Positions 12 to 39,666 of a stretch of DNA of 44,439 nt are shown here, one piece after another. Origin of the DNA: Syntrophomonadaceae bacterium (GTDB lineage Bacteria; Bacillota; Syntrophomonadia; Syntrophomonadales; Syntrophothermaceae); assembly GCA_012719535.1 (NCBI GenBank), contig JAAYAC010000005.1, forward strand, positions 1-44,439, in the 5' to 3' direction. A model generated the notes under the pieces. That model did not search any database, was not told the DNA's origin, and saw nothing but the letters and a program-made list of their open reading frames with translations. The translations under genes and the position numbers were made by a program. The stretch's first letter is position 1. Each line of letters begins with the position of its first letter.

Positions 12-1046
12 ATGGTTATTGTAATGGAAAGGAATGCCACCGAGGAACAGGTTCACAACGTGGAGGAGAAGCTAAAACAGCAGGGTTTTACCGTCCACTT
101 ATCCAGGGGAGTGGAAAGGACCATTATTGGGGCCATTGGCGACCGCAACTGTGTTGCCCTGGAGACCCTGGAAACCCTGGCGGGGGTGCAAAAAGTAGTC
201 CCGATTCTGCAGCCTTTCAAGCTCTGCTCCCGCGAATTTCAGTCCCACGATACGGTGGTCACCGTTGGGGGACTGGAAATAGGTGGCGGCCAACTGCAAG
301 TGATTGCCGGACCGTGTGCGGTCGAGTCGCGGGACAAATTCCTGGAGGTGGCCGAGATGGTCCGGGAGGCCGGGGCTACCATGCTGAGAGGTGGAGCTTT
401 CAAACCACGCACTTCGCCCTACTCCTTCCAGGGGTTGGAAGAGGAGGGGCTGAAGATACTGCGGGAGGCCCGGGAATTGACCGGTTTACCGGTGGTCAGC
501 GAGGTGGTGGACCCGCGCCTGGTGCCCATGGTTGCCGAATACGTTGACGTGCTGCAGGTTGGGGCCCGCAATATGCAGAATTTCTTCCTTCTCCGCGAAG
601 TGGGGAAGGTTAACCGTCCGGTGATACTGAAGAGAGGTCTTTCCGCCACTATTGAGGAATGGCTGATGGCGGCGGAATACATCATTTCCAGCGGCAACAA
701 CCAGGTCATACTGTGTGAAAGATGCATCAGGACTTTTGAGAACTACACCCGCAATACCCTGGACCTGTCCGCCATACCGGTGATTAAACACCTTACCCAC
801 CTGCCGGTGCTGGTTGACCCCAGTCACGGGACCGGCAAGTGGAAACTGGTGGAACCTATGGCCAGGGCAGCAGTGGCGGCGGGGTGTGACGGCCTGATGG
901 TGGAGGTGCACCAGAACCCTGCCGAGGCCTTGTCTGACGGACCTCAGTCCCTGACCCCGAAAAACTTCGCGCACATGATGAGAAGTGTGCACCTCATAGC
1001 CGGGGCGCTGGCGGTCGGGGACTTCAAAACGCGGTTGGGGAGTTGA
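12..1046 (+). CDS. aroF: 3-deoxy-7-phosphoheptulonate (DAHP) synthase, type I-beta with N-terminal regulatory domain
   Basis: This enzyme condenses phosphoenolpyruvate and erythrose-4-phosphate in the first step of the shikimate pathway in the cytoplasm. The 344-residue protein starts at ATG with AGGAAGG just upstream. Residues 1 to about 70 look like the ferredoxin-like (ACT-like) regulatory domain found in the Thermotoga type of DAHP synthase, which in that family mediates tyrosine feedback control. The TIM-barrel core follows, with the family motifs [36 protein letters not shown] and DPSHGTGKW, which carry substrate and metal ligands. It is the first gene in the window, with tyrA seven bases downstream and then aroA, so the three are one operon that may begin outside the window. 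Identification is firm. Feedback by tyrosine or phenylalanine is inferred from the family. Confidence 0.97.
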
Positions 1047-4884: not shown

Positions 4885-6303
4885 TTATTCAAACTCAAAC
4901 CCGAGCTGGGTGAACAGCCGGAGACAGGAATCTACCACTTCGGGATCGTAGAGAATACCCCGGTTAAGCAGAATTTCCTCCAGTGCCCGGTCGATGCCCA
5001 GAGCGGGGCGGTATGGGCGGTGGGAAGCCATGGCTTCCACCACATCGGCTACGCCAAGAATTCTGGCTGACAGCAGAATGTCGGTTCCGGATAAGCCCAG
5101 AGGGTACCCGGACCCATCCCAGCGCTCGTGATGTTGGAGAAGGGCCCCGGACACGGAGGTCTCGAATGGTATAGAGCTGGTTATTTCATAACCGATGTTG
5201 GGATGGGTTCTGATAAGCTGCATTTCGATCTCATTCAGTTGGCCGGGTTTGCTGAGGATATCGGTGGGAAGGTGTATCTTGCCTATATCATGTAACATTG
5301 CGGCCAAGCGGATTTCTTTAATCTGTTGCTCCGTCAGATTCATCTCCCGGGCAATGGCACCGGCCAGCTGGGCTACACGCCGCTGGTGACCGGCGGTGTA
5401 CGGGTCTTTTTTCTCTGCGGTCAGGGCCAGGGCGTTTACTACCCCCTCCAGGGCATTTTGCAGCTTGACCAGGCTGTTCTGTAGTTCATCTTGCGCCCGT
5501 TTCCGCTCCGTGAGATCACGAATGGATTCAATGGCACCCACCAGATTGCCCTGGTTATCATACAATGGGGTGGCCTTCCCCCACAGGAAAGCTTCCTTTC
5601 CTCTTAGACACGGGGCCGTGGTTTCGGCTATGAGGAGATTTTTTTCCTTGGTGGTAAAGGAATAATTGTTTTCCACCTGTTCATCGGAACATAGTACCAG
5701 GTCGATGAGAATGGGTCTCCGGGTACCGTAAAACGGTAGGGCATATTCGTAGTTCCCTTTGCCCAGCATGTCCTCAGCCGGTACCCCGGTCATTTCCTCT
5801 ATAGCCTGGTTCCAAGTTATTACACTGCCATTAAGGTCTATGACGAAAGTTGCATCCGGCAAAAAGTTGATGATATCGGCTAACCGCAGCTTCCATTCCC
5901 TCAAGGCTTCTTCGACCCGTCTGTGGCTAGTGATATCAGTTACAAACGCACAGTAGAAATGAGTATTGCGACCGTGGCCAAAAACCAGGTTGATTAGTGA
6001 TTCAACCGGTACCCGTTCTCCAGCCTTGCGGACACACTCTTTCTCATAACGTTGCGGTAGTCCCGTCTGGTACAACTCCTGCGTCATTTGCTTATGAACC
6101 TCGTGCCATTCGGAAGTCATCAGGTCGTATAGCGACATGGCCAGCAGTTCCTTTTCATTGTAGCCTGTCAGTTTACAGAAGGGGGTGTTACAGCCAACTA
6201 TGTGCCAGGCCGGGTGAAGGATACAATAAGGCTGTGCAGAGCGGCGGGAGAATCGTTGCCGGCGCTGAACCTCTTCCAGCGGAACGAGTTGTTCACGAGA
6301 CAT
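4885..6303 (-). CDS. PAS-PAS-HD-GYP protein (putative c-di-GMP phosphodiesterase)
   Basis: A 472-residue soluble signalling protein. A first PAS domain spans about residues 25 to 130 and a second about 140 to 270; the HD-GYP domain spans about 285 to 470. The HD dyad is in MLHDIGKIHLP (His338-Asp339), and the diagnostic HHERWDGSGYP segment lies at 391-401, so the full HD-GYP metal site appears intact. HD-GYP proteins hydrolyse c-di-GMP. The second PAS is about two thirds identical, by eye, to the first PAS of the histidine kinase at 22891-24480, including [13 protein letters not shown]. It is the last gene of the chemosensory block, 83 bases after cheX, with a good ribosome binding site (TAGGAGG). 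That implies that c-di-GMP turnover and array expression respond to the same cue. Confidence 0.93.
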   Translation of the reverse strand: MSREQLVPLEEVQRRQRFSRRSAQPYCILHPAWHIVGCNTPFCKLTGYNEKELLAMSLYDLMTSEWHEVHKQMTQELYQTGLPQRYEKECVRKAGERVPVESLINLVFGHGRNTHFYCAFVTDITSHRRVEEALREWKLRLADIINFLPDATFVIDLNGSVITWNQAIEEMTGVPAEDMLGKGNYEYALPFYGTRRPILIDLVLCSDEQVENNYSFTTKEKNLLIAETTAPCLRGKEAFLWGKATPLYDNQGNLVGAIESIRDLTERKRAQDELQNSLVKLQNALEGVVNALALTAEKKDPYTAGHQRRVAQLAGAIAREMNLTEQQIKEIRLAAMLHDIGKIHLPTDILSKPGQLNEIEMQLIRTHPNIGYEITSSIPFETSVSGALLQHHERWDGSGYPLGLSGTDILLSARILGVADVVEAMASHRPYRPALGIDRALEEILLNRGILYDPEVVDSCLRLFTQLGFEFE

Positions 6304-6386: not shown

Positions 6387-6848
6387 CTATATTTCCAAGG
6401 CGACGTTCAGTTCAAGTGTCCCCTGGGTGCCGTTGAACTGAATCGCCAGGGTTTCGACCTGGCTGACCAGGGAAATGACTTTCTTACCGTTGACCAGGGT
6501 AGGAGGGGTGATGTTAACCAGCAGACCCAGCTCTTCAAACCTGCTGACGCTGTTGCCTGCTGCCATGTTGGCCAGCTCGCAGAGCGCGCTCTTGGGCATG
6601 AGGTCGAACTGTGCAACCGGCATACCTCCCATCATGGTCGAGGCTATATTACAGGCGGTAGATTCCGGCATGGATAGGACCACGTTTCCTTTGATATCCC
6701 CGGCCAGGCCGATGATGACGTTGACATCCTTTACCGTTTGCAGCTTGGCGCGCTTGACCAGGCCGGTTCGCTGCAGGCCGGCCAGTCCCAGCATGCTGCA
6801 CACGTTTAGAAAACCCGCGATGAATGGATTTATGTACTTAACGTCCAT
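6387..6848 (-). CDS. cheX: CheX-type chemotaxis phosphatase (second of two)
   Basis: CheX dephosphorylates phospho-CheY in bacteria that lack CheZ. This 153-residue protein has the N-terminal NPFI segment and the signature glutamate/asparagine pair in CELANMAAGN (Glu91, Asn94), the residues that insert into the CheY active site, followed by the TPPTLVNGK region. Its start ATG is three bases after the stop of the upstream cheX, so the two are co-translated. Possession of two different CheX proteins fits with two separate CheY proteins and a CheB in the same operon. Confidence 0.88.
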   Translation of the reverse strand: MDVKYINPFIAGFLNVCSMLGLAGLQRTGLVKRAKLQTVKDVNVIIGLAGDIKGNVVLSMPESTACNIASTMMGGMPVAQFDLMPKSALCELANMAAGNSVSRFEELGLLVNITPPTLVNGKKVISLVSQVETLAIQFNGTQGTLELNVALEI

Positions 6849-6851
6849 GTC

Positions 6852-7331
6852 CTATTTCTTTCCCTCCTCCACGGCCACATTGATTTTTACCGGCCCGGCT
6901 TCAGTTTCCATTACCACCGACCAGGAACTGAGCCGGACATTGAACATGCTGAGAGCTTCGCCGGCGAAGACGCTGGGAGGGGTGAGACGGATGTTCAACC
7001 CTGGTTGATGGTTGTTGATGTGGGTTATGGCCCGACCACTGACGATATTCCCCAACTCGGCGCCGCATAACAGAACTTCTTCGTCAGCGAAAGACTGGTA
7101 ATCCTCTCCTGTCATCGACCTGGCCAGTTTAACGGCTGTCTCCCTCGCCATATCCAGAAAAAATCTTCCGCGTGCGCCGCCGGTAAAACCGACAATAACC
7201 GTGAATCCCCTCGATGCAAATGAATCTCCTTCGGTTTCAGGTTGCCCCCTGGTGACCGTTAGATCCAGCATCTCCTTGAAGACATCGACCGTAGCCCTGA
7301 TAAACGGTGCCATGTATATGCTGTCATTCAA
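6852..7331 (-). CDS. cheX: CheX-type chemotaxis phosphatase (first of two)
   Basis: A 159-residue CheX/CheC-family protein. The motif CGAELGNIVSGRA carries the catalytic-type Glu and Asn, and the TPPSVF block matches the equivalent segment of the neighbouring CheX. The TTG start overlaps the TGA stop of the upstream cheY (TTGA), with GAGGTGA seven bases upstream. The tight coupling to cheY strongly suggests that this CheY is its substrate. It is only distantly similar to the second CheX, so this is not a recent duplication. Confidence 0.85.
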   Translation of the reverse strand: MNDSIYMAPFIRATVDVFKEMLDLTVTRGQPETEGDSFASRGFTVIVGFTGGARGRFFLDMARETAVKLARSMTGEDYQSFADEEVLLCGAELGNIVSGRAITHINNHQPGLNIRLTPPSVFAGEALSMFNVRLSSWSVVMETEAGPVKINVAVEEGKK

Positions 7332-7732
7332 TAGGTTTCACCTCGGCTTTGCAGGATAATAAGGATTTTCTCTATAATCTGTTCGGGTTTAAAAGGCTTG
7401 GAACAAAAGTCATTAATTCCGCGTGCCCGGGCTTCGTTCAGTAAGTCGTTGTCTCCCATGGCACTCAGCATCAAGATTTTTTGGCCAGGGTTGATGTCCT
7501 TGATAGCCGCGGCGGCTTCCAACCCGTCCATCACCGGCATGGTAATATCCATGGTGATGATGTCCGGCTGAAGGTTCAGGTATAACTCCACGGCTTCCTT
7601 GCCGTTGCCCGCTTCGCCCACGACGAGAAACCCCTCGGGCTCCAGGGCCTTCTTTATCATTTTTCTGGTGACCGGGGAATCGTCCACAGCCATAACTGTT
7701 ATAGGTGTTCCGTCCGGTCGCACGCCTTTCAT
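7328..7732 (-). CDS. cheY: CheY-like response regulator
   Basis: A single receiver domain of 134 residues. The acidic pair is in MAVDDSPVTRKM, the phospho-acceptor is Asp62 in ITMDITMPVMDG, and the switch and lysine positions are in MLSAMGD and SKPFKPEQI. There is no output domain, so it probably carries the CheA signal to an effector protein. It lies between cheB and cheX, overlaps cheX by four bases, and has AGGGGGGT six bases before its ATG. It is one of two stand-alone CheY proteins in this operon; the other is next to cheA. Confidence 0.92.
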   Translation of the reverse strand: MKGVRPDGTPITVMAVDDSPVTRKMIKKALEPEGFLVVGEAGNGKEAVELYLNLQPDIITMDITMPVMDGLEAAAAIKDINPGQKILMLSAMGDNDLLNEARARGINDFCSKPFKPEQIIEKILIILQSRGETY

Positions 7733-7744
7733 TGTGATACCCCC

Positions 7745-8800
7745 CTACATGTTAACTGCCTTTACAATTTCGCGAGCGATATCCCAAATAGGAACTACAA
7801 TTTCCGCTCCCCCGCGCTTGATAGCCTCGCCCGGCATGCCGAAAACGATGGCACTTTCCTCGGACTCGGCAATGGTTGTCCCACCTGCTTGCCGGATACG
7901 AACCATGGCGTCGGCGCCGTCGCTGCCCATGCCGGTCATTATCACCCCAATGGTTTGCTTCCCGTAAACCTTGAGTACAGCATCCATCATAATGCTTACC
8001 GAAGGGATAAAGAGGTGCTCCGGTTTGGAGGGCAGCCTGATGACTACTTCCCCGGCAGAAGTATTAACCAGGGTGAGGTGTCGCCCGCCCCGCCCTACGT
8101 AGACCACCCCTGCCCTGATTTTCATACCGGCCTCTGCTTCCACCACTTCCACCTGGCAGGCTTCGTTCAACCTTTTTACATAGGTGGAGGTGAAGTTGGC
8201 AGGCATGTGCTGCACCAGAAACATGGCGGCATTGAGGTCCTTCGGTATCAGCGGCAAGACCTCGTAGATGACTTTGGGTCCACCGGTGGAAATCCCCATG
8301 GCCACTGCCTTTAACGCCTTGCCAGGCTGGCAGACCGTAATCTCGGGAACCCCGGTTGAGCGGTGGCGGACCCGGGCCAGCTTTTCGGTTATCTTACGCC
8401 GGTTTTTAAGTTGAGAGGCCGCCTTGACTTTGGCGATGAGCGCTCCGGCCACTTGTTCCAGGTTGGAGGAGACGGTACCCCCGGGTTTGGCCACGAAATC
8501 GAATGCTCCGAGTTCTAGAGCTTCGAAGGTGGTGACGGCCCCCTCCCGGGTAAGAGAGGAGACCATGACCACCGGACAGATTTTTTCCTCCACGATGTAT
8601 TGCAGGGCGGTGATACCATCCTGCTTGGGCATGTTGACGTCCATGGTTATGACGTCCGGCCGGTATTCCCTGGCCTTGGTCACCACATCTTCGCCATCCC
8701 GAGCGGCGGCCACTACCTGGATTTCCGGGTCCACCTCCAGGACCTTCTTCAGCATCTTGCGCATCAGAGCGGAATCGTCAGCGATTAATACCCTTATCAC
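7745..8800 (-). CDS. cheB: Chemotaxis response regulator and protein-glutamate methylesterase CheB
   Basis: CheB removes methyl groups from (and deamidates) receptor glutamates in the adaptation arm of chemotaxis. The 351-residue protein has a receiver domain with phospho-acceptor Asp54 (ITMDVNMP) and a linker at about 125 to 160. The methylesterase domain has a complete catalytic triad: Ser171 in GISTGG, His198 in VQHMP and Asp294 in GMGSDGADAM. It starts at GTG directly after the stop of the triple-CheW gene. Together with CheR at 18646 it shows that the array is methylation-adapting. Confidence 0.96.
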   Translation of the reverse strand: MIRVLIADDSALMRKMLKKVLEVDPEIQVVAAARDGEDVVTKAREYRPDVITMDVNMPKQDGITALQYIVEEKICPVVMVSSLTREGAVTTFEALELGAFDFVAKPGGTVSSNLEQVAGALIAKVKAASQLKNRRKITEKLARVRHRSTGVPEITVCQPGKALKAVAMGISTGGPKVIYEVLPLIPKDLNAAMFLVQHMPANFTSTYVKRLNEACQVEVVEAEAGMKIRAGVVYVGRGGRHLTLVNTSAGEVVIRLPSKPEHLFIPSVSIMMDAVLKVYGKQTIGVIMTGMGSDGADAMVRIRQAGGTTIAESEESAIVFGMPGEAIKRGGAEIVVPIWDIAREIVKAVNM

Positions 8801-8801
8801 T

Positions 8802-10346
8802 CTACTGCTCCCTGCCCTGTTTTTTCAGCTTCACCGGGGTCTCCTTCTTGGCGGTGGGCGTGGACGTGTTCATTTCTGCCACCTTTTGCCATTCTTTTTC
8901 AACCAGGATGTTGCGCAGGTCCAACAGCATAATCATCCGGCTACCCAGGTTGGCGATACCGTCCATGAAACTGTACGCCTGGTTGCCCTGCAGGATGTCC
9001 GGCGCTTCCTCCAGCAGATTCCTGGGTATCCGCAGCACCTCCATCACTTCATCGACAATAATGCCGATCTTCCGAGCGTTAATGTCACTGACGATGATAC
9101 GGGTAAACTCGGTGTAATCTTTCTGTTCGATCTCGAACCGTTTCCGCAGGTCGATGACCGGGATGACGTCTCCCCGTAAGTTAACTACCCCTTCCACAAA
9201 CCTCGGGGCCCGGGGAACCTTGGTTATCTGGGAAAGGCGATTAATCTCCTGCACCTGGGTAATGCGGAGCCCGTACTGCTCTCCTGCCAGCTTGAAGACC
9301 ACCATCTGCTCTTCATTGGTGCTGTCGGAGAAATCTTCCGTGTCCTGAGACGAGCGGTTTTCCGCTTGCTCAAAACTGATATCCTGGAGAACCTCGTTGC
9401 TTATGGTAGTCCGAGGTTCGATGAGCATCATGATGCGCCTGCCTTCCTCCAGCCGGACAATGCCTTTTAACTGTTCCCTGGCCTCGCCCACGATGGTCTG
9501 CGGGGGAGGAAAGATGGTATCCCGGCTGACACGGGCCACTTCGTTCACCTTGTCCACCACCAGGCCTACCTGCACGTTGTCGACGTCGATTACCACTACC
9601 CTGGTGTTGTCGGTGATAGTGTCGTTGCCGGTATCAAGCTTGACGCGCATGTCGACGATGGGCAATAGCCGGTCCCGCAGGGAAATGACCCCTTTAATGT
9701 AACCTGGTACGTTGGGGACCTTGACTATTTCGGGATAACGGATGATCTCCCGCACGTATTCGATCTCCAGGGCAAACTCCTCTTTCCCCAGAAGGAAGGA
9801 AACCAGTTGTGCTTCTTCTATTTTTCTGTCGTCTGTTCGGGTAACCCGGGTCTTCCCGCTCTTGCGGAAGGCAGCCGTGCTGTCACTTGCCCGGTCAATG
9901 CTGCACAAGCTGGCAGCATCGAGGATCATTACCACCTTCTTGTCTTCGTCAACCTTTACCATCCCGGCTATAGCACCGGCACCGGTTTCCCCGGACACCA
10001 TGGACGGGGCTGGTTCGATGCGGTTGGCTTCCACCCTCAATACCTCCGACACGGCGTCAACACTGAGGCCAACGGTACGCCCGCCCACGTCGACCACGAT
10101 TACCCGGCTGGAAACACCGTCCCCCGAGCTTTGCATACCGAACTTGATGCGGGTGTCTATGACCGGCAGGATGTTGCCGCGCAGGTTGGTAACCCCTTCG
10201 ACATAGGCTGGGGCTTGCGGGATGACGGTAATGGAAGGGGTGCGTATTATCTCCTGGACGTTCATGATATCGATGCCAAAGCTCTCCTTACCCAGGGTGA
10301 AGGTCACCAGCTGCATTTCCTCAGAGGAGAATATGTTGTCGCTCAT
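8802..10346 (-). CDS. Triple CheW-domain scaffold protein
   Basis: A fusion of three complete CheW domains in 514 residues, at roughly 10 to 155, 185 to 325 and 345 to 490. Each has the pattern of E-x-F/Y-G/A-L/I-x-I near the start, a VxNLRG or VISLRD hallmark, then VIDxRxKF and an I-V-D-x-V segment. The linkers are polar and rich in Ser, Asp and Glu. CheW normally bridges the CheA P5 domain and receptor tips as a single ~150-residue domain; three in tandem could cross-link several receptor trimers. The gene follows the soluble MCP (231-base gap with inverted repeats) and abuts cheB. Confidence 0.93.
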   Translation of the reverse strand: MSDNIFSSEEMQLVTFTLGKESFGIDIMNVQEIIRTPSITVIPQAPAYVEGVTNLRGNILPVIDTRIKFGMQSSGDGVSSRVIVVDVGGRTVGLSVDAVSEVLRVEANRIEPAPSMVSGETGAGAIAGMVKVDEDKKVVMILDAASLCSIDRASDSTAAFRKSGKTRVTRTDDRKIEEAQLVSFLLGKEEFALEIEYVREIIRYPEIVKVPNVPGYIKGVISLRDRLLPIVDMRVKLDTGNDTITDNTRVVVIDVDNVQVGLVVDKVNEVARVSRDTIFPPPQTIVGEAREQLKGIVRLEEGRRIMMLIEPRTTISNEVLQDISFEQAENRSSQDTEDFSDSTNEEQMVVFKLAGEQYGLRITQVQEINRLSQITKVPRAPRFVEGVVNLRGDVIPVIDLRKRFEIEQKDYTEFTRIIVSDINARKIGIIVDEVMEVLRIPRNLLEEAPDILQGNQAYSFMDGIANLGSRMIMLLDLRNILVEKEWQKVAEMNTSTPTAKKETPVKLKKQGREQ

Positions 10347-10577: not shown

Positions 10578-12539
10578 TTACTGGTTGACCTGCATTTCAT
10601 CGGCGATGGAGGCGATTTCCTCAATAGAGTTGGCCAGCTCGTCAATGGCTTTCGCCTGTTCTTGGGCTATGTTGGAAGCCTCTTGCACCTGTTGCTCGGT
10701 GGAATTGATGATTTCGGTAACGGCCTTGGATACTCTGACCCCCTCCACCACGGCAGTTTCCATTTCTTTAATGGCACGGGCCAGGACCTCACGATTCTTT
10801 TGGATTTCTTCCACCTGAGCGGTAGCCAACCGGTTGGTCTGGGCGGCCACGCCCGCGGTTGCATCAGCCTTGCGCGATGCGCCTTCCGACAGGGCCAGTT
10901 CGGCGATTACTTTGCCCATCTGGGCCTGGATGTCGCGTACCAGATCCTTGATCTTGTCGGCATTTTCCGCTGATTCGGCGGCCAGGTTTCGAATGTCCCC
11001 GGCGACTACCGAGAAGCCCCGGCCATGTTCACCGGCCGTAGCGGCCTCCACAAACCCGTTAACCGCCAGCATGTTGGTCTGGATAGATACATTTTCTATG
11101 GTATCGACAATCTTTTCAATGCGGCGAATCTTTTCCTGTAGGCTTTCAATGGCCGCATTGGTGGGCCCGTACGATTCGATGCCCTTCTTGATACCGGCCC
11201 AGACCTCCCGGGCGCTGGCCCGACTCGCCTCCAGGGTTTCCGCTACTTCCGCATAGATTTTGCCGGCTGCGGTAGTGGTTTCCATTATGCTCTTCATGAG
11301 AACCTCTGCCTCTTGATTGATACCGGCCGCCTTGTCGGCTTCTTTGGCGGCTGCCCGGCTTCCGCCCGCCATCTGAGTGAGAGCGCTGGCGATCTCGGTG
11401 GCGGAGGTGTTAATTTCTTCAATGTTAGCGGACAGTTCCTCTGCGGTAGCCGCCACCTCTTCGGCGGACTTGTTTATATTGGTGGAGGTCTTAAGTTCCT
11501 CCGCCATCTCTGCCAGCTCCTGGGTGGCCAGGCTGACCTCGGCCAGGGCTTTTGTTTGTTCGGCGACTGCTTTGGCCGATTCCTGGGTACTGCTCACCAG
11601 TTGCTCGGCGGCGGAGGCGATGGCTTCGGCGGAGGCCAGCAGTTCATCCGCCTTCGCCTTCATTTCGTTGCCATGAGTTACCTCCTCTTCCACCCTCAGA
11701 GTATACTCGTTGAACAACTGTTGGGTCTTGTCAAATCCTTGATTGGTTTTTTCCAGTTCTTCCTGCAGGCGGTGGAAATCTGCCACCACCGCGTTAATAT
11801 CTTTAACGACTTCCTCCACTCCGGCGCGGATCTCATCAACCACGCCCCGGATATCCCGGGCCGACTTTTCCGAGATTTCAGCGAGGTTTCTTACTTCGTC
11901 CGCCACTACCGCGAAGCCGCGTCCGTGCTCCCCGGCCCGGGCAGCCTCGATGGCCGCGTTCAAGGCCAGCAGGTTGGTCTGGTCCGCAATCATCACCACG
12001 GCCTGGACGATATCGCCAATCTGCTGGGACTGAGCTTCCAGCTCACCTATGCGCTCGCCCGACTGTTGGTTTTTATCCACCGCCTCCTTCAGTTCTACCG
12101 CCATGTTTTGCATTCCCTTGAGAGATGCCTGGGCCGCTTCCGCGCCTTTGTGCGCAAACTGGTTAAGCTGTTCCAGGCTCTTCTGTAATTCTTCAACTGC
12201 CCTGTTAATTTGAACCGCTCCCACCCGCATCTGATCGGCGTTGCTGCCCACCTGTTCACCGTTAGCCGCGAGGTTATCCATCAACTGGGAAAACTCCTGA
12301 GCGGAAGCGTTGGCTTCTTCAATCCCGGCCAACAATTGCTCCGAAGCCGAGGCGATCCTCTCCGCCATAGCCTGTTGCTTGGCCAGGGTGCGGGCCCGGG
12401 CCTTTTCCTGGGCCATCTTGCGGGCCTGTTCCCTCTTTCTGGTAATTTCATCGTTGCTTTCATTCTTAACCGTTATGCGGGTTTTCTCTCCTGCTACCCC
12501 GGTGGTAGCGGCTGCAGGTTGCTCCAGCTTTTTAGCCAT
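10578..12539 (-). CDS. Soluble methyl-accepting chemotaxis protein with two signalling tips
   Basis: A 653-residue, almost wholly alpha-helical protein with no transmembrane segment and no recognisable ligand-binding domain. Two complete MCP hairpin tips are present, at residues about 183-221 ([20 protein letters not shown]...) and 483-521 ([20 protein letters not shown]...), exactly 300 residues apart. The long heptad regions rich in Ala, Glu and Gln between them would form the helical bundles. Tip 1 is canonical; tip 2 departs from it ([10 protein letters not shown] in place of [18 protein letters not shown] in place of NAAIEAAR). The N-terminal 60 residues are highly basic/acidic coiled coil. 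It is the only receptor in the window and sits between the Hsp70-like gene and the triple-CheW gene, so it is probably the core of a cytoplasmic array. Confidence 0.93.
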
Positions 12540-12589: not shown

Positions 12590-14083
12590 CTACAATACTG
12601 TCAATCCTCTACCCCTGCGGTTGAGGCTCTCCTTGTTCCCGGAATACACCGCTCCTGTAATCTGAACCTGGTTGGTGGTACCGGTATCCAGATCGAGGGC
12701 CGATACGTTGAGAATGCCGTTCTTGTCGATGGCAAAGGTAACGTCGATATTGGGCTCGCCGGCTTTCGCTTTATGTATCCCTTCCAGGTGAAACCGGCCC
12801 AGGGAAACCAGGCCCTCGCTACCAGCGGTGTTCAGGTCATCCTTCTGCAGTATGTGAATTATCACCTCCTCCTGGTCATCCTCCACGGTGGTGAAGAGTT
12901 TGGATTGCACCACCGGGTAGGAAGTGTTAGCCGGAATCAAAGGAACAAACTCCCCCAGGTTATCCTCGATGCCCAGGGTGTGGGAGGTCACATCATAAAA
13001 CTCGATGTGTTCCACTGCTCCGGCGAGCATGCCCGCCTCGATGGCTGCTCCCAGTGCCACCACTTCATCGGGGTTAATGTCGGTCTTGATTTCGGCGTGT
13101 CCGAACATCTCGCTGACCATATCCCTGAATCCCGGCATGCGCGAGGCGCCCCCGGCTAGAACCACCACGTCGACCCAACGTTCTTCCACTCCCGCCTTGG
13201 CCAAAGTCTGAAGGATGAGAGACCTGATCTCGACGAAAAGGTCGGTGCATATCTTATGAAACGCTGCCCGGCTCACCACCTGGTTCAGGTGCAAGGGACC
13301 GGCTTCACCCATGGTGATGTAAGGAATCAGCACCGAGCTCTCGTTAACGGTGGAGAGGTCAACCTTGACCCGCTCCGCATTGACTTGCACCTGTTGCAGA
13401 GCAACCTTGTCCGCGGTCAGGTCCACTCCCGTCATCTCGTAAAACGTGGTCAGAATATACTGGGCGAGGCGGTTGTCAAAGTCGGTTCCGCCCAGGGTGG
13501 TGGAACCGCCGGTGCCGATGACACGGTATATTCCCTTTTCTCCTTCCATCAGGGTAATATCAAAAGTTCCACCGCCTATATCCAAAACCAGGATGTTTTC
13601 CTTTTTTTCGGACCTGATGCCGTAAGCCAGGGCCGCGGCAGTAGGTTCGTTTAGCAGTTTAAGGACCTTAAGCCCGGCCAGCTCTCCGGCCAGGAAAGTG
13701 GCCTGGCGCTGGTTGTCGTTAAAGTAGGCTGGTACTGTGATGACGGCCGCCTCAATTTCTTGACCTAGGTATTCCCGGGCGTACTGCACCAGCTTGCGCA
13801 AGATCAGAGCGGATATTTCGACCGGGGTGTAGCCCCGCTGGCTTATGAAGACCTGGTAATCCGACCCCATATGTCGCTTGATGCAGCTTACTGTCCGGTC
13901 TGCCTTGAGCACCATCTGGGAACGAGCCAGCTCGCCCACCAGCACTTCCTGATCATTCTTGAAGTACACTACCGACGGAGTCAGTCGGCTACCGCGTTCA
14001 TTGATTACGATCTCCGGTTTTCCTTCTCCGTTGATGAAGGCCACCAGGGAGTTGGTGGTTCCAAGGTCAATACCGACGATCAT
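12590..14083 (-). CDS. Hsp70/DnaK-like protein lacking the C-terminal lid
   Basis: A 497-residue Hsp70-family ATPase. The nucleotide-binding domain (about 1-360) has phosphate-1 ([11 protein letters not shown], residues 4-14), the connect and [11 protein letters not shown] segments (145-155), phosphate-2 ([12 protein letters not shown], 167-178) and the adenosine motif ([11 protein letters not shown], 308-318). A substrate-binding beta domain follows (about 366-478). The alpha-helical lid of DnaK, some 100 or more residues, is absent, and the protein ends in a short basic tail. The interdomain linker reads IEFYD instead of the hydrophobic VLLLD of DnaK, so allostery may differ. It begins 12 bases after the small TPR gene with an excellent ribosome binding site and is followed by the MCP. 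No dnaJ or grpE is nearby, so this is not the housekeeping dnaK operon; a dedicated role in the array is inferred. Confidence 0.92.
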
Positions 14084-14095
14084 TACATCTCCTCC

Positions 14096-14473
14096 TCAGC
14101 TCCTAATCATACCGAGGTTGGCACGGGCAGTGGCGTTTTCGGGGCACACTGCAACCGCGCGCTCCAATAAGCAGCGAGCGGCCTCGGGATGGTTGTTTTC
14201 AAAGAGAATGACTGCTGCGTTGTTGAGAGCTTGCGAAATCAGAGCGCGTGCTTCTGCCGAGGCGGTCTGGGGGTTTCCGAAAAGGTCGATAACCTGGCGG
14301 TAATGATGGTAGGCCTCCCAGGCATTACCCATCTCATCTTCTTTGAGGGCCAGGTCGTAGATGGACCTGGCCCGGGTAAGAAGCGCGTTCTCAGCCGCCC
14401 GGGCGGCCGGAGTACCGGCTGCCGAAAGCAAGATATCAAGTCCCATACCTAGATTTTTTCTGACCATATTCAT
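14096..14473 (-). CDS. Small TPR protein with ParB-like N-terminal peptide
   Basis: A 125-residue protein. Residues about 27 to 125 form roughly three degenerate tetratricopeptide-type helix pairs (ALKEDEMGNAWEAYHHYRQ, ALNNAAVILFENNHPEAAR, ERAVAVCPENATARANLG). The N-terminus, MNMVRKNLGMGLDILLS, resembles the basic K/R-x-G-LGxGLxALL peptide at the start of ParB/Spo0J proteins, which in that family stimulates the ATPase of ParA. A ParA-family gene lies directly upstream (102-base gap) and the Hsp70-like gene is 12 bases downstream. It therefore looks like an adaptor between the ParA ATPase and the chemosensory array or Hsp70. The TPR assignment is fairly secure; the ParA-activating role is inference from a short motif. 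Confidence 0.75.
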   Translation of the reverse strand: MNMVRKNLGMGLDILLSAAGTPAARAAENALLTRARSIYDLALKEDEMGNAWEAYHHYRQVIDLFGNPQTASAEARALISQALNNAAVILFENNHPEAARCLLERAVAVCPENATARANLGMIRS

Positions 14474-14574: not shown

Positions 14575-15360
14575 CTAAGTCAGGCTTCTGTACAGTACTT
14601 CCTCGACAACTTGTTGGTAATCACGTGCCCCCCGGCAACTAGGGGCATACTCGCTTATTGTCTTGCCGAAACTGGGAGCTTCGGCGAGTTTGATGTCATT
14701 CCGCACCGGGGGTAGCAGGCGGTCCTTACCAAAGTTTTTTTGAATTTCTTCCAGGACGCTGCGGGCCAGATTGGTTCGCCGGTCACACTTAACTGGCAGT
14801 ATGCCCATCAACCTGAGAGAAGGGTTAAACTCAGCGTTAACCCGGTACAGGATGTTCATCATCTGTGCGAGCCCATCCATGGACAGAAAAGTGGGCTCGA
14901 TGGGTACAATCAGGTAATTGGCGGCGGCCAACCCGTTAATGGTAATAAGCCCCAGCGAAGGGGGCAGGTCGATGATAATGAAATCGTAGTCCCTATCCAC
15001 TTCCAGCAACACATCGTGCAGCAGCGCTTCACGCCCCGGTGCTTGCGCGGCCTCCAATTCCACCGCTGCCAGATCCGGCTTGGAAGGAATAAGGTCGAAT
15101 GATTTGTGCGATTTGATAATAGTCGGTTCTACGTCGTGCCGTCCTTCCCGGTCTGCCAAAATGAGGTGGAATAATTCGTAGACGGTGGCGGTCAGGCGAT
15201 ACGGGAGGACCCCGCAGCTTACCGTAGCCTGTGCCTGGGAATCGGCGTCCACCAGTAGGACTCTCTTGCCCTGCCGGGCCAGCCCATCGGCGATGTTGAC
15301 GGCGCTGGTAGTTTTGCCACTGCCTCCTTTACGGTTGGCCACAACGATAGTTGATGCCAT
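14575..15360 (-). CDS. ParA/MinD-family ATPase (array partitioning type)
   Basis: A 261-residue ParA-type ATPase. It has the deviant Walker A motif KGGSGKTT at residues 11-18 (signature Lys11), the switch I DADSQAQAT and Walker B IIIDLPPSLG. ParA proteins form ATP-dependent dimers on the nucleoid and move or space cargo. Its stop-to-start context (ATG three bases after the cheA stop, ribosome binding site AGGAGGAT) ties it to cheA, and no parB or parS-like gene adjoins. The chromosomal soj is expected near the replication origin with spo0J, so this is an orphan ParA. The known relatives in this setting are ParC of Vibrio and PpfA of Rhodobacter, which position chemotaxis arrays. Function here is inferred from that parallel. 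Confidence 0.92.
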   Translation of the reverse strand: MASTIVVANRKGGSGKTTSAVNIADGLARQGKRVLLVDADSQAQATVSCGVLPYRLTATVYELFHLILADREGRHDVEPTIIKSHKSFDLIPSKPDLAAVELEAAQAPGREALLHDVLLEVDRDYDFIIIDLPPSLGLITINGLAAANYLIVPIEPTFLSMDGLAQMMNILYRVNAEFNPSLRLMGILPVKCDRRTNLARSVLEEIQKNFGKDRLLPPVRNDIKLAEAPSFGKTISEYAPSCRGARDYQQVVEEVLYRSLT

Positions 15361-15363
15361 GGG

Positions 15364-18156
15364 CTATCCTCCTATTTTGCCGAATAGCTGTATTTTGAGA
15401 AGTTGTACCGGGTTAAGGATGAGGGCTACGCTGCCATCCCCCAGGATGGTCACTCCGGCGTAAATCTTCAGACTGGCTAGCTCTTCTCCCAATGACTTGA
15501 CGAAAAACTCTTGCTGGCCCTGCAGGCGGTCAACGATGATACCGACTCTGATCCCCTCAGCATCGATAACCACGATGGGCAGGCGGTCGTCATCCGGGCT
15601 TCCCGCCGGGCTTTTGGCAAGTTCCCGCGCTTCTAGCCCCAGCAGGCGCGCCAGGTATACCAGAGGAAGTACCTCGCCGCGGATATCCGCGACCATGTGG
15701 TCCCGGTAGCTTCTGGTGTTGGCCCGGGGTAGCTTGACCGTTTCTTGAACCGCATCAAGGGGAAGGATAAATGCCTGACCGGCTGTTTGTACCATTAATC
15801 CTTGGATGATGGACATGGACAGCGGTATTTTCAGAGCGAAGGTGGTGCCGGTTCCGGGGGTGCTATTTACCTCAATGGACCCGCCCACGCGTTCCACGTT
15901 GTTTTTTACCACATCCATACCCACGCCACGTCCGGACAGCTCGCTGATCTCATCACGGGTACTGAATCCGGGAGTGAAGATGAGCTGGTAGGCCTCTTCG
16001 TTACTCATTTTCTCGATGTCATGGGGTTTTATCAGGCCCTTTTGCAGTGCCTTCAGCTTTATTTGTTCAGGATTCAAGCCTCCACCGTCGTCAGTTAATT
16101 CGATGATCGCGTGGTTGCCCTGGTAATAGGCGGCGAGGCGGACGTGACCGGAGGCGTCTTTCCCTGATGCCAGCCGTTGTTCCGGTGATTCGATGCCGTG
16201 GTCCACGGCGTTGCGCAGCATGTGGACCAAAGGGTCGTTGATGGCTTCGATCACGGCTTTGTCCAGTTCGGTGTCTTCTCCTGCGATGGTCAGTTCCACC
16301 AGCTTGTTGGCCCGCCGGGAAATATCGCGGATGGTGCGGGGGTAGCGCTGAAACAGTACGCGCAGGGGAAGCATGCGTGCCGACATGATGGCATCCTGTA
16401 GCTCGTCGGCAATGTGAGCCAGTTCGGCAGCAGCCGACTTAACCTCCCGCGCCAGGGCGGGGAGGTCGTACTGTGAGCCGATCTTGGCAGCAAGATGAAA
16501 GATGCGGTTCTTGGCAATCAGAAGCTCCCCGATCATGTTCATCAGACGATCCAGCTTTTCCTGGCTGACTCTTACGGATTGGCTGCCCGGCTCGCCGGCG
16601 GGGGTGCGGCCTTCACCGGCTTTTTCCCGCGCCTTTTCCCGGGCTGTTGCCTGCCTCTGCAAAGCGATGGCTACATCGGCGGGAGTAGCGGCACCTTCGT
16701 CTACCAGGATTTCTCCCACCCTTTTCTGCTGTTTGAGGGCCCGGTCAAGTTCCCGGGAGGTTATCTTGTTTTCGGCGATTAAGATTTCGCCCAGTCTCTT
16801 GTCGGCGTACTCGGGCGGTACCTGTTGGATCATTTCCTGAATTCCAGACACCCTGGCGCCCAGGAGCTGCTTCAGACGGTCATAACCAGTCCTGAGGAAG
16901 GATGGCACCCCGGCCAGAACCGTGTCTGATTCGGCAGTTAGTTTGTCCAGGTAGGCCAGTTGCTCGCCGCTGGCCCGGACTATATCATCAAACCCCAGGT
17001 AACTGGCTGAGGATTCAACGTTCCTGAGGGCGCGAATGTATTGTTTGAACCGTTTGCGGTTGATGGGGAGACCTTCCCTGACCGTTGCCAGGATGTTGGC
17101 CATGGATTCCAGGGCCTGGCCGGTGATATTTAGGAATGCGTTGAACCGGGCCACCAGGTCGTTGCTCCCGGAGGGCAAACACGCCGGGGTGCTGGCCGGG
17201 ATAGCTATTGTCCCCGCCAGTTTTTCCACCTGTGCCACAAGCTGGTCCGGTGAAAAGTCGGCCGGCTGTTTTTCCTGGACCAACGTAAGTAACATGGCGA
17301 CCTTGTCTACTACCTGCAGTACCAGGTCAATGACGCCCGCCGTTGGTGCGTGAGAATGGTTGCGGTAGGTTTCTACCAGGGTTTCCGTGGCATGGGTCAG
17401 GTTCTTGATCATCAGGACCGGGTCCTGGGAGTCATCCTGTTCCCGCATGCTGGAAATTAGACCGGCTGCGCCTTTTATGCTGTGGAACCCTCGCAGAATA
17501 GCATTCAATGTTTCCCGGTCCTGGGGACATTTCTCCAGTTGAACGCAATTCTGCTCGATGGTATCCAAATGCTCCCGGGTCTCCTCAAGAAAATCGGTCA
17601 GCATCTGGTCCGCCAGTGACGATAGCTCCAGTTGTGAATAGGCGGGGCTGGATTCCCAAGTCTCCCCTGCCTCCTGTACTGTTGCGGTCGGCGCCTTGCC
17701 TTCCGTCGCGCCCTCCGACCTGGTTCTCATCCGTTCCACTTCCAGCACGAATTCCTGGAAATCGCACTCCTCGATCACCACCTCGAAAGGCTCCCGCAAC
17801 GGAGTGCCTTGCACCTCCTGTATCCGGTTGGCCAGCTGTGCGATGAGGAGGCCGAGGATGTCGGCGCCCCGCAGAACCAGGTCGGTAATATCAGCGTTTA
17901 TGGCGTAAGTGCCCGTGCGCACATCGTCGAGCAAGGATTCCAGAGCGTGGGCGGTATTTTTAACGGGAACAAGGTCCACAAAACTGGCCACTCCTTTGAT
18001 GGAGTGCAGGGCGCGAAAGACCGCATCGACAAGTTGGGGGTCAAACTCCGCCTCCAGTTTTAGTATCCCTGCTTCGATTCCTTTCAGGTGCTCGGTGGAT
18101 TCCTCGACGATGCCCTGCAGTATGTCCAGGTCGTCGGGTTCAAAGGTAAACTTCAC
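15364..18156 (-). CDS. cheA: Chemotaxis histidine kinase CheA with two Hpt domains
   Basis: A 930-residue CheA, about 250 residues longer than the classical enzyme. Order of parts: Hpt domain 1 (about 5-110, phospho-acceptor His51 in ALHSIKG); Hpt domain 2 (about 180-310, His225 in GFHSIKGAAG); a third Hpt-like helical segment (about 335-440) in which the histidine position is Arg378 (ALRNVESSASYLGF). A small tandem module of the type II secretion-E N-domain kind comes next (about 450-505, KRLGEILI...RVGEILVDEG), then P3 dimerisation (about 528-620). The P4 kinase domain has N-box HMLRNAVDHG, G1 DDGGGLNPEQ and G2 GRGVGMDVVK. P5, a CheW-like domain, ends the protein (about 780-925). No typical P2 is visible. 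The GTG start has AAAGGCGGT nine bases upstream; cheY precedes and parA follows by three bases. Confidence 0.96.
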   Translation of the reverse strand: MKFTFEPDDLDILQGIVEESTEHLKGIEAGILKLEAEFDPQLVDAVFRALHSIKGVASFVDLVPVKNTAHALESLLDDVRTGTYAINADITDLVLRGADILGLLIAQLANRIQEVQGTPLREPFEVVIEECDFQEFVLEVERMRTRSEGATEGKAPTATVQEAGETWESSPAYSQLELSSLADQMLTDFLEETREHLDTIEQNCVQLEKCPQDRETLNAILRGFHSIKGAAGLISSMREQDDSQDPVLMIKNLTHATETLVETYRNHSHAPTAGVIDLVLQVVDKVAMLLTLVQEKQPADFSPDQLVAQVEKLAGTIAIPASTPACLPSGSNDLVARFNAFLNITGQALESMANILATVREGLPINRKRFKQYIRALRNVESSASYLGFDDIVRASGEQLAYLDKLTAESDTVLAGVPSFLRTGYDRLKQLLGARVSGIQEMIQQVPPEYADKRLGEILIAENKITSRELDRALKQQKRVGEILVDEGAATPADVAIALQRQATAREKAREKAGEGRTPAGEPGSQSVRVSQEKLDRLMNMIGELLIAKNRIFHLAAKIGSQYDLPALAREVKSAAAELAHIADELQDAIMSARMLPLRVLFQRYPRTIRDISRRANKLVELTIAGEDTELDKAVIEAINDPLVHMLRNAVDHGIESPEQRLASGKDASGHVRLAAYYQGNHAIIELTDDGGGLNPEQIKLKALQKGLIKPHDIEKMSNEEAYQLIFTPGFSTRDEISELSGRGVGMDVVKNNVERVGGSIEVNSTPGTGTTFALKIPLSMSIIQGLMVQTAGQAFILPLDAVQETVKLPRANTRSYRDHMVADIRGEVLPLVYLARLLGLEARELAKSPAGSPDDDRLPIVVIDAEGIRVGIIVDRLQGQQEFFVKSLGEELASLKIYAGVTILGDGSVALILNPVQLLKIQLFGKIGG

Positions 18157-18172: not shown

Positions 18173-18550
18173 TCATTGCTTGCCCAGGAGCATGCGGATA
18201 TTCTCTACCAGGACTTCGGGCTCGGTAGGTTTCACGATATACACGTTAGCTCCTGCTTCAAATCCGCGCGCCTTGTCCTTCACTTCATCCTCGGTAGAAA
18301 TGATTACTATTGGTATCTCTTCGTAGGCGGGATCGTCCCGCAAACGTTCAATAAACGTATAGCCATCCATGTTAGGCATGTTGATGTCAGTCAACACCAT
18401 GACCGGGGCCTGGTCGCTGGCATATAGTTTTTCCAGGGCGTCGGCTCCGTCAACGGCGGTGATTACTTCCAGGCCGATACTTTTCAGAATGTAGCCATGA
18501 AAGTTACGCACCATTTCAGAGTCATCAACAATAAGAACCTTGTTTCTCAT
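18173..18550 (-). CDS. cheY: CheY-like response regulator (cheA-linked)
   Basis: A 125-residue single receiver domain: acidic pair Asp9-Asp10 in LIVDDSEMVR, phospho-acceptor Asp55 in VLTDINMPNMDG, then the Ser/Thr switch in VIISTEDE and lysine in IVKPTEPE. It has GGGAGG before its ATG. It lies just upstream of cheA, which makes it the most likely direct phosphoryl target; the second CheY of the operon is next to cheB and cheX. There is no DNA-binding or enzymatic output domain. Confidence 0.93.
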   Translation of the reverse strand: MRNKVLIVDDSEMVRNFHGYILKSIGLEVITAVDGADALEKLYASDQAPVMVLTDINMPNMDGYTFIERLRDDPAYEEIPIVIISTEDEVKDKARGFEAGANVYIVKPTEPEVLVENIRMLLGKQ

Positions 18551-18645: not shown

Positions 18646-19485
18646 TCAAGCCTGGTATACTATATGGTTGCCCAGCCTGGTTATCCGGAAAGCCGTACTG
18701 ATGCGGCTTAATGATTCGGCATGACCCAGAAAGACGAATCCTCCCTTGTTGAGCATGGCGTAAAACCGGTCCACCACTTGCTTGCGAGAAGACTCGTCAA
18801 AGTAGATGAGTACATTGCGGCAGAAAATAAAGTCATAGTTGCTCTCATAGCGTAAGGCCCGCCGGTCCATAAGATTGAGATGTTCGAACACTACCATGTC
18901 ACGGATTTCAGGCTTTATCAGGAACTCGCCCGGAACCGGGCTGGTAAAGTACCTGGTCAAATATGGCGGTGGAACGTCTTTTACCGAACGGATGTCGTAT
19001 AGCCCGCGCCGTGCAGCGGCCAGGACTCTCTGGTCGATATCGGCGGCCTTGATCACCACATCCCAGCGGTCGAGGTCATCTATCATTTCCTTGAGGATTA
19101 TGGCCAAGGTATAAGGTTCCTCCCCGGTGGAACAACCGGCCGAAAAAACCTTGATGGTCCGCTCACCCGTAGCCAGTTTACGCTGTATCACTTCCGGCAG
19201 GCACGCTTCGGCGAACACCTGCAACTGGGAAAACTCTCGGAAGAAGTAGGTTTCATTCACGGTGAGCAGATTGATGAGTTCTTGAAACTCGCGCTGTTCG
19301 CCGTCAAAGAACTTCAGAAACCGGAAATACTCCCGGGCACTCGGGATGCCCAGTGCTTCCATGCGTTTTTGCACCCGCTTTTTCATAAAATAGACCTTGT
19401 GTTCGCCCAAATAAATGCCGGTACGGTCGTAAACCAGGTTTCTTAATTTGATGAAATCCTCGACTGGCAGATCCAAGCTTCTCAC
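18646..19485 (-). CDS. cheR: Chemotaxis protein methyltransferase CheR
   Basis: CheR methylates receptor glutamates with S-adenosylmethionine. The 279-residue protein has the alpha-helical N-terminal domain (about 1-75), the KRVQKRMEALG basic segment and NETYFFRE. The SAM-binding motif SAGCSTGEEPYTLA is near residue 116, and FDFIFCRNVLIYF and FLGHAESL lie towards the C-terminus. All are standard. The GTG start overlaps the TGA stop of the preceding REC-HEAT gene (GTGA), though a TTG nine bases further in, with GAGGTGAG in front, is an alternative. It pairs with CheB for adaptation of the soluble MCP. Confidence 0.96.
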   Translation of the reverse strand: MRSLDLPVEDFIKLRNLVYDRTGIYLGEHKVYFMKKRVQKRMEALGIPSAREYFRFLKFFDGEQREFQELINLLTVNETYFFREFSQLQVFAEACLPEVIQRKLATGERTIKVFSAGCSTGEEPYTLAIILKEMIDDLDRWDVVIKAADIDQRVLAAARRGLYDIRSVKDVPPPYLTRYFTSPVPGEFLIKPEIRDMVVFEHLNLMDRRALRYESNYDFIFCRNVLIYFDESSRKQVVDRFYAMLNKGGFVFLGHAESLSRISTAFRITRLGNHIVYQA

Positions 19486-20951
19486 CTCGCCTGCTGCAAC
19501 TGCTCTATCGCTCTGTCGATAGCCTCCAGCAGATCGTCATCAGTAACCTGGTCCCGGAGGCAGCTCAGAACGGGTATCGCCCGGCTATCGCCGAGAAGCC
19601 CCAAGCCTTCCACCGCTCCCAGGCATACCAGTTCCTGTGCCGGTTCAAGATGTTGCTCAAGCAGCGAAAAAATTTCGGCGTTACGGAATTCGCCTAGCAA
19701 AACCAGCAGTTCATACTTGTTTATGTCATTGATTCCCGAATCCAGGTAAACGGTAATTGCCGACAACAGTTCGGGAGGAAGATAGTTGCGTTCGCTGTGG
19801 CGAAGAATGCCTTCGATGGCATTGATGATTTCTTTGGCCATCAGTTTACCTTTTTCTAGGAGAAGCGAGGTGACCAGCGGCAGGTGAGTCTCGGTCCCTT
19901 TGGAGGCTACAAACTTCAAATAGGAGTACTGTTCCAGCGGGCTGATGGACTCGTAGGTGGGGTAAGCCGCGGCCACTGCTGCGACCGATTCCTGGTCGCC
20001 GATCAGAGCCATGGCCTCCAGGCAGGTACAGCGCAATAGCAGGTTGCTGGCAGAATTGAAGATACGGTTAATCTTATCGATGTGGGCGGCGGCTTCCAGG
20101 CGGCCCAGGTATTCGACGGCGGTAATTACTATATTGATATCGGGATCGTCAAGGGCCTCCGCGATCAGGTTCGCTGCGAACGGGCTGTTCAATTGAAACA
20201 TTACGTCGAGGGCAAATTTTCTCACGTCTTTGTCAGGGTCGCCCAGCAATTTCTCGAGCGGGGCCAGGGCAGTTTCGTTCTGCCGGGAGAGGATGTCTAT
20301 GGTAGCGTTACGGATGAAAGCATCGTCACTGCGCAAAAGGGGGATTACTTGTTCAACCAACTCTGTACCTTTCATGTTGCGCAAGGCATTGACGATAACC
20401 TCCCGGACAAAACGGGAAGGCTCGATCTGCAACCGTTCTACCAGGGGCCCGATGCCTTCGGTCAGATTATCATAGCCTATGTCCTCCGCGGCAAACGCTC
20501 GTTCTTTTTCATCTACGGAATTCAGTGCTGCAGTCAATGCCGCAATTTCTGGCAAAGAAGCTCCACTCCTTTCCATGGGTTGTAATACCTGGTGTGCGGC
20601 TACCTGCTCGGTTATGTTGATCAATTCCGCTATATTAATGGGTTTGTGCAGGTAGTCCAAAGCACCGGCCTGCAGGGCCTCCAGAGCTGTTTCTGAACCA
20701 CCATATCCCGTAAAGAGGACCACGTCCACGTCACTCCCTCCAGGCAGAGAGCGGATTTTACCTAGCAAGTCTAGCCCGGACATTTTCGGCATGCGTATGT
20801 CAGTCAGAACCAGCTGAAACCTTTTACGGGTGATGGCTTCCAGGGCATCAATGCCGTTAGATTTTTCCACCACGTTATGCCCCAGTTCTCTTAAAAAACC
20901 AGCTATGCTCATTCTGCTTTCTTCTTCATCGTCGACCACCAAAATATCCAC
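19482..20951 (-). CDS. Receiver domain fused to HEAT-like repeats
   Basis: A 489-residue response regulator with an unusual output. Residues 1 to about 120 form a receiver domain (acidic pair in ILVVDDEEESR, phospho-acceptor Asp51 in VLTDIRMPKMSG, lysine in LHKPINI). The rest, about 140 to 485, is a series of HEAT/PBS-lyase-type helical repeats (for example VNALRNMKGTELVEQVIPLLRS, RKFALDVMFQL), a protein-binding solenoid. The start chosen is GTG at 20951, five bases after GGAGGTG; the ATG at 20987 upstream lacks a good site. The receiver is about 60 percent identical by eye to that of the NtrC-type regulator one gene upstream, implying duplication with a change of output domain. It is the first gene after the sigma54 promoter and overlaps cheR. 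Confidence 0.88.
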   Translation of the reverse strand: MDILVVDDEEESRMSIAGFLRELGHNVVEKSNGIDALEAITRKRFQLVLTDIRMPKMSGLDLLGKIRSLPGGSDVDVVLFTGYGGSETALEALQAGALDYLHKPINIAELINITEQVAAHQVLQPMERSGASLPEIAALTAALNSVDEKERAFAAEDIGYDNLTEGIGPLVERLQIEPSRFVREVIVNALRNMKGTELVEQVIPLLRSDDAFIRNATIDILSRQNETALAPLEKLLGDPDKDVRKFALDVMFQLNSPFAANLIAEALDDPDINIVITAVEYLGRLEAAAHIDKINRIFNSASNLLLRCTCLEAMALIGDQESVAAVAAAYPTYESISPLEQYSYLKFVASKGTETHLPLVTSLLLEKGKLMAKEIINAIEGILRHSERNYLPPELLSAITVYLDSGINDINKYELLVLLGEFRNAEIFSLLEQHLEPAQELVCLGAVEGLGLLGDSRAIPVLSCLRDQVTDDDLLEAIDRAIEQLQQAR

Positions 20952-21218
20952 CAGCTCACCTCCGGCCAAGTAATTGTAGGCGATCATAACCCTTGTCGGC
21001 GCCTACAGAAAGCATTAAGGATAGTTGTTAAGCAACACGTGCCGGGGTAGGTGGTCATGGCCCCCGGTCGGGGGCTGCCGTTGAACGGGCGATAATACTG
21101 GTCCGGCACGCCTGCAGCCAAGTCAACGAGCAGGAACAATCTCAGTATGAAATTAGAATTCTTCAGCGCTTTCAGTGTCTGTTTTTGCGTCTGAGAGTCA
21201 CGGTTAACCAATCGCCAC

Positions 21219-38946: not shown

Positions 38947-38950
38947 GTGT

Positions 38951-39664: not shown

Positions 39665-39666
39665 GT

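Follow-up and report, generated by a model that had tools for sequence, protein, structure and literature searches.

A DosM-type double-tip receptor in a putative F9-class chemosensory cluster of a Syntrophomonadaceae bacterium

Among the closest described systems is the cytoplasmic chemosensory cluster of R. sphaeroides (TlpC, TlpT and PpfA), which, like the system reported here, combines soluble receptors with a ParA-like partitioning protein, and in which a sandwich of two baseplates has been seen. The cytoplasmic receptors of R. sphaeroides are single-tip. ParA proteins encoded in che operons have been tied to the partitioning of cytoplasmic clusters, with ppfA reported in the che operons of 77 species (PMC2829493), and N-terminal ATPase activation has been suggested for TlpT and shown for PomX (PMC7993993).

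A closer likeness is found in DosM (VC1403) of the V. cholerae F9 system, known here by description: a soluble receptor with two signalling domains, encoded beside a triple CheW. The published hallmarks of the F9 class are DosM and CheW3: full clusters were reported for 64 of the 2781 species examined, and a sensory domain is stated to be lacking in 98% of DosM proteins (PMC9321776). V. cholerae DosM has been presented as a rod spanning two CheA/CheW baseplates (PMC7534058, PMC9321776); it is apparently essential for array formation and requires partner receptors, for which 24H receptors were named as candidates (PMC7534058). The V. cholerae baseplates are reported to lie 35 nm apart, as compared with 31 nm for single-tip Tar fragments (PMC3964821). 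Both the double-tip receptor kind and its bridging mechanism are already published, and are not new. A preliminary description of the present locus held that normal MCPs have a single tip; this is true in general, but a double-tip family had already been described.

The receptor and its chemosensory cluster

The window (the whole stretch of DNA that was analysed: 44,439 nucleotides, contig JAAYAC010000005.1 of assembly GCA_012719535.1) contains a dosM-type receptor gene within the following complete chemosensory cluster:

6387–6848, minus strand: CheX-like protein
6852–7331, minus strand: CheX-like protein
7328–7732, minus strand: CheY-like receiver
7745–8800, minus strand: CheB
8802–10346, minus strand: CheW3, a single chain with three CheW domains (matched in three stretches, 350 bits)
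10578–12539, minus strand: dosM-type receptor gene (653 aa ORF)
12590–14083, minus strand: Hsp70 homologue of 497 aa, without the C-terminal lid region, directly upstream of dosM
14096–14473, minus strand: small TPR-like protein (matches below the Pfam curated cut-offs)
14575–15360, minus strand: ParA/MinD-like ATPase
15364–18156, minus strand: CheA, 930 aa, with two Hpt stretches
18173–18550, minus strand: CheY-like receiver
18646–19485, minus strand: CheR
19482–20987, minus strand: receiver and HEAT-repeat protein

The receptor ORF starts at an ATG with a strong Shine-Dalgarno match. Pfam MCPsignal (PF00015) matches the protein in two stretches (202 bits); in the whole-genome search both stretches, within one stop-free open frame, exceed the family cut-off (118.6 and 85.2 bits). 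Pfam recognised the MCP signalling domain only, with no sensory domain, and a simple hydropathy scan found no transmembrane segment (no 19-residue window over the threshold). Equivalent residues of the two tips, Q187 and Q487, lie exactly 300 positions apart. The ORF, the two PF00015 stretches, the hydropathy scan and the Q187/Q487 pair bear out the initial claim of two MCP tips, 300 residues apart, in one membrane-free chain.

Several features link the locus to known groups. Two belong to the DosM receptor family: (i) two tandem MCP signalling domains in one soluble chain, and (ii) full-length homology of the protein to double-tip receptors of other phyla. Two belong to the F9 class: (iii) a concatenated triple CheW, and (iv) the presence of CheA, CheB, CheR and CheY in the same cluster. 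A fifth, (v) a ParA-like ATPase within that cluster, is shared with PpfA/TlpT-type partitioning. Identity amounts to 38% with the Acidobacteriaceae homologue, 37% with Alteromonas, 36% with Denitrovibrio and 34% with that of a Paenibacillus MAG, in a comparison drawn without VC1403. With its two MCP domains and a neighbouring triple-CheW gene, which is the F9 signature, the window protein is almost certainly a DosM-type scaffold receptor of the F9 class. The CheW3 match recurs in 102 of the 105 homologous loci whose neighbourhoods were surveyed (60, 40 and 5 from three rounds); the exceptions are L135 and two loci on short contigs, L146 and L152.

The locus departs from the described systems in several respects. 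Set beside V. cholerae DosM as described, the host's receptor differs in having F496 and T501 in its second tip, and the host's cluster adds ParA, a TPR-like protein, a lidless Hsp70 and two CheX proteins. The window cluster has both DosM and CheW3, neither of which is mentioned in the available parts of the published R. sphaeroides description.

Other signalling features were noticed in the window. In CheA (15364–18156, minus strand), residues 454–502 score 41.2 bits against NF053729, an MshE-related motif for c-di-GMP binding (cut-off 38), which points to a possible input of c-di-GMP to the kinase. A PAS-PAS-HD-GYP protein, possibly a c-di-GMP regulator, is encoded just downstream of the CheX genes (4885–6303, minus strand). 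At 37969–41070 (minus strand) lies another signalling-like cluster: two adjacent genes for KaiC-type ATPases, of which one has two stretches, and after them a gene for a V4R-domain protein.

Tandem units and tip spacing among homologues

The receptor comprises an N-tail (residues 1–53), unit A (54–349, apex E204) and unit B (355–651, apex E504), with a break at residues 350–354 between them. Compared as family profiles, unit A (54–353) and unit B (354–651) align over 296 gap-free columns (probability 100, E 1.6e-54). When the protein is compared with itself at offset 300, identity is found at 75 of 297 positions, as against 13 to 41 at the six other offsets tried. The gap-free profile alignment and the excess of identity at offset 300 indicate that the likeness of the units is not due to chance. 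Its sequence shows the receptor to be the product of a tandem duplication, without gaps, of a single complete MCP hairpin some 300 residues long. The nearest solved structure by sequence, the cytoplasmic domain of T. maritima TM1143 (2ch7, E 4.2e-27), has one hairpin only, the size of one DosM unit, in contrast to the two units of the window receptor.

As the preliminary description had proposed, homologues with two MCP signalling domains were collected. The set comprises 154 distinct open frames from several phyla; the loci are not independent, since some genomes give several. At E 1e-60, homologues of the window protein turned up in 18 of the 63 genomes searched for the host's order, and in 42 of a sample of 398 from its phylum. 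When other DosM proteins served as queries, DosM was detected in 8 of 26 and 6 of 22 genomes of two classes in the host's own phylum, 47 of 328 Microvirga-family genomes, 20 of 323 Bradyrhizobium-family genomes, 9 of 315 genomes belonging to the same order as a Rhodocyclaceae genome, 3 of 295 belonging to that of the Alteromonas genome, and 3 of 196 genomes of the genus Vibrio (at 1e-50). Seven plasmid records match at 1e-40, four of them covering at least 80% of the query. In a search of named genomes, in which the patterns hit the common tip, four of the 80 loci (L053, L054, L055 and L065) were kept because they encode a full double-tip receptor; such a receptor is also present in each of the genomes of L056, L060 and L061.

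Tip spacing is close to constant. Measured by profile alignment, it is 300 in 140 of 153 measurable rows, 301 in seven, 297 to 299 in five and 311 in one. Among 57 distinct proteins with a chosen start codon—a count that leaves aside three further loci consisting of fragments only—it is 300 in 50, 301 in six and 402 in one; in 53 of the 57, tip 2 lies 165 or 166 residues from the C-terminus. The Vibrio DosM proteins reached, a set that does not include that of V. cholerae itself, have a spacing of 300 or 301. The spacing of 402, as against 300 in the window receptor, belongs to the DosM of a Denitrovibrio MAG (L055, 10010–12247), and arises because a CZB zinc-binding domain (Pfam 53.1 bits) is inserted in arm 2; the case is missing from the 153 profile rows presumably because the insert splits its row. 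The Denitrovibrio locus otherwise resembles that of the window, having two tips and adjoining CheW3, Hsp70 and ParA genes.

Some genomes carry extra dosM copies—four in G030, three in G062 and two in G027 (L134, L135, L141, L144, L150, L151)—some of them close together; near copy L135 no other che gene was found. Split dosM genes (L147, L149) were considered as true two-protein forms and rejected in favour of the simpler explanation of frameshift errors: they are probably assembly frameshifts, because neighbouring genes in L139 are also split. Many DosM proteins of the host's order and phylum share a short motif near the N-terminus (KKLxxP or KTLxPLP). It was not seen in the proteins of Alteromonas, Acidobacteriaceae, Vibrio or epsilonproteobacteria, and is therefore not universal.

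Differences between the two tips

The two tips lie at the following positions:

11898–11987, minus strand: tip 1, canonical (residues ~185–214)
10998–11087, minus strand: tip 2 (residues ~485–514)

Tip 2 differs from tip 1 throughout the family. Position 495 is Gly in all 152 aligned rows (Ala at the tip 1 equivalent), position 493 is Val in 145 of 152 (always Leu in tip 1), and position 486 is Ile or Val in 145 of 152 (Asp in 151 rows of tip 1). The changed sites of tip 2 correspond to Tsr L380, A382, A383 and R388. By motif spacing, the last of these is position 501 of the window receptor. None of the 22 rows of the host's order keeps Arg there, and these rows are precisely the ones that combine Phe496 with Thr501. 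The homologue of Tsr R388 is reported to form an inter-dimer ionic lock with that of E385 of a neighbouring dimer in the trimer (PMC8144572), while Tsr R394 and N405 are reported as CheA contacts (PMC6746300); the equivalents of the latter two, R507 and N518, are retained in tip 2 of the window receptor. Because the R388 equivalent is lost while those of R394 and N405 remain, the change is assigned to trimer packing. The early claim that tip 2 is altered where it contacts CheA/CheW is thus only partly correct: it holds as to alteration, including at the R388 site of the trimer salt bridge, but does not extend to the CheA-contact equivalents: by residue equivalence, tip 2 in the host's order is altered in trimer packing, and not at the CheA contacts checked.

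It is very improbable that tip 1 is the sole working signalling tip, with tip 2 a degenerate copy kept for structure. The missing Arg in every row of the host's order would suit such a degenerate copy, as would the lower conservation of tip 2 relative to tip 1; yet E498, G506, G508 and F509 of tip 2 are invariant across the 152 rows, Arg at 501 is retained in 127 of the 130 rows outside the host's order, and the CheA-contact equivalents are present in the window protein itself.

Possible placement of the receptor in the array

Between the two units lies a feature that bears on how the receptor is folded:

11478–11492, minus strand: central non-helical break at the midpoint between the two apices (residues 350–354)

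AlphaFold2 monomer models (one chain, five sequences each) were made for the window protein and for its Alteromonas homologue. Mean pLDDT is 87.8 and 90.3, respectively; both models are helical almost throughout, and in both the helix breaks at the apex midpoint (350–354 and 336–338), with a further one-residue irregularity at 456 in that of the window protein. First in the VIA-align list for the window model stands a single-chain four-helix bundle of de novo design (Z 20.1, rmsd 1.7 A, 192 of 194 residues), with a model range of 54..651; the best structural matches of the Alteromonas model span ~108..570, and the top four-helix-bundle matches of the first model do not recur in its list. A match range of 54..651 needs the first and last arms to be packed together, from which a fold-back is read for the window model. 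Going by these alignment ranges, both monomers appear folded back, with the four arms together and the tips at one end. Matches to pore-forming proteins and TTYH channels were rejected as signs of kinship and taken as common helix-bundle arrangements. Structure prediction, which had been suggested at the outset, gives two nearly fully helical units with a midpoint break, but the monomers do not show opposed tips.

At an alpha-helix rise of ~0.148 nm per residue, a straight 300-residue rod would be ~44 nm long, which fits the published baseplate spacing of 35 nm poorly; overlapping layers of the kind described for Tar fragments would account for 35 nm at least as well. To tell rod from fold-back, coevolution was analysed by mutual information and by mean-field DCA (11-letter alphabet). 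The alignment comprised 152 of the 154 sequences, L187 and L297 having been dropped for gaps; the effective number was 123 at 90% identity and 87 at 80%. Pairs at the same height in unit A and unit B were not clearly favoured; neither were the within-hairpin positive controls, and a heptad pattern was present in all classes.

Three arrangements may be weighed against this evidence. The receptor may be a long rod spanning the array, its two tips entering two opposed CheA/CheW3 baseplates and fixing their spacing, as proposed for the published homologue. Bridging of two baseplates by one chain, which the preliminary description had suggested, is in agreement with what is published for DosM of F9 and with a published average, known second hand, that favours the rod; the monomer models show no opposed tips, although a monomer cannot rule them out. 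Against the spanning rod stand the midpoint break in those models, bundle match ranges that only a fold-back would give, and a length of ~44 nm set against the 35 nm between V. cholerae baseplates (PMC3964821). By analogy with the homologue, the window receptor nevertheless probably bridges two baseplates with opposed tips.

It is unlikely that the hairpins instead lie side by side via the 350–354 loop, giving a one-chain four-helix bundle with both tips in one baseplate and two layers that meet or overlap base to base. Such a pseudo-dimer would account for the midpoint break in both proteins, the top match of the window model over 54..651 (and the Alteromonas rows over ~108..570), and a published spacing shorter than a 44 nm rod (PMC3964821); the universal differences between the tips would suit a heterodimeric bundle. 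Yet with one chain and five sequences as input the chain could only pack on itself, the fold is read from alignment ranges and not from coordinates, the leading bundle matches of the first model are missing from the second list, and the published cryo-ET reading is a spanning rod (PMC7534058). Among the best literature matches, no work on a fold-back DosM was found. An antiparallel rod dimer—a domain-swapped version of the fold-back and a special case of the bridging rod, in which each end would pair tip 1 of one chain with tip 2 of the other, so that the ends are identical—is quite unlikely. Its intra-bundle contacts would equal those of the AlphaFold2 fold-back, it agrees with the published rod (PMC7534058), and it would unite spanning with consistent tip differences such as the asymmetry at position 495 in 152 of 152 rows; but the direction of the chains is a matter of conjecture, and the 35 nm spacing is equally awkward for it. 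Taken together, spanning is more likely than a pairing of tip 1 with tip 2, be it by fold-back or in an antiparallel dimer. That DosM is a single-chain pseudo-dimer or a swapped antiparallel dimer, whose tips 1 and 2 always pair in the same baseplate with the canonical and the Gly-bearing tip dividing labour, is a tentative proposal, and one we hold to be less probable than its converse.

The window receptor is almost certainly the DosM-type scaffold of a putative F9-class cytoplasmic chemosensory array. Because Pfam recognises no sensory domain in it, signals would have to come from partner receptors, for example two short soluble MCPs encoded elsewhere in the host genome. A search of that genome (2.49 Mb, 203 contigs) gave eight MCP matches besides dosM, covered by seven stretches. 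In the measured set, which leaves aside L341 and the second L342 match, the apex is followed by 154 residues in three receptors with predicted membrane segments, by 263 in the soluble MCP L344, and by 82 in the MCPs L342 and L343, for which no membrane segment is predicted. The last figure is that expected of class 24H, and because of it L342 and L343 fit the partner candidates named for V. cholerae. By eye, L342 (contig C10; ~500 residues, with a short arm after the apex) has an N-terminal part resembling an NAD-binding dehydrogenase domain, and L344 (contig C76), with its tip near the middle, has an apparent sensory domain at the C-terminus.

The ParA-like ATPase may position or partition the soluble array in the cell, on the precedent of R. 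sphaeroides PpfA; by this analogy, we consider the chances of such a role to be evenly balanced. ParA was found in 23 of the 105 loci, including those of Alteromonas relatives and alphaproteobacteria, where it lies behind CheA. Its absence from the other 82, some of which are cut by contig ends, speaks against a positioning role, as does an N-tail about as basic in loci without ParA. The DosM N-tail was considered as a ParA activator and rejected: the first 30 residues contain on average 5.9 K/R in 13 proteins with ParA in the locus as against 5.6 in 44 without, so a ParA-specific activator role is not supported. Hsp70 occurs in 15 of the 105 loci (in one, L136, as a fragment only) and the TPR protein in 12; Hsp70 beside dosM was confined to loci of the host's order and of Denitrovibrio (L055), most F9 clusters lacking it. 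The window homologue matches DnaK models to about position 495 of ~600 and then ends, and is for this reason described as lidless. That it helps array assembly is a guess; no work on Hsp70 with DosM was found among the best literature matches, and the available text of PMC9321776 mentions neither Hsp70 nor DnaK. Considered as a whole, a DosM-type F9 scaffold that spans the array as a rod, receives its input from partner receptors and is positioned by ParA is likely to be the best explanation of the locus.

The window protein adds a member to the F9/DosM class, from a lineage whose array cluster holds ParA, a TPR-like protein and a lidless Hsp70. The near-invariant spacing of 300, the midpoint break and the universal asymmetry of the tips make the rod picture, with one tip per baseplate, directly testable, and the Denitrovibrio DosM, with its spacing of 402, is a natural test of it. 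A folded-back receptor would make F9 sandwiches a pair of overlapping layers, in the manner of Tar fragments, without 44 nm rods to hold them; a pairing of tips 1 and 2 would make DosM a receptor heterodimer with a natural link.
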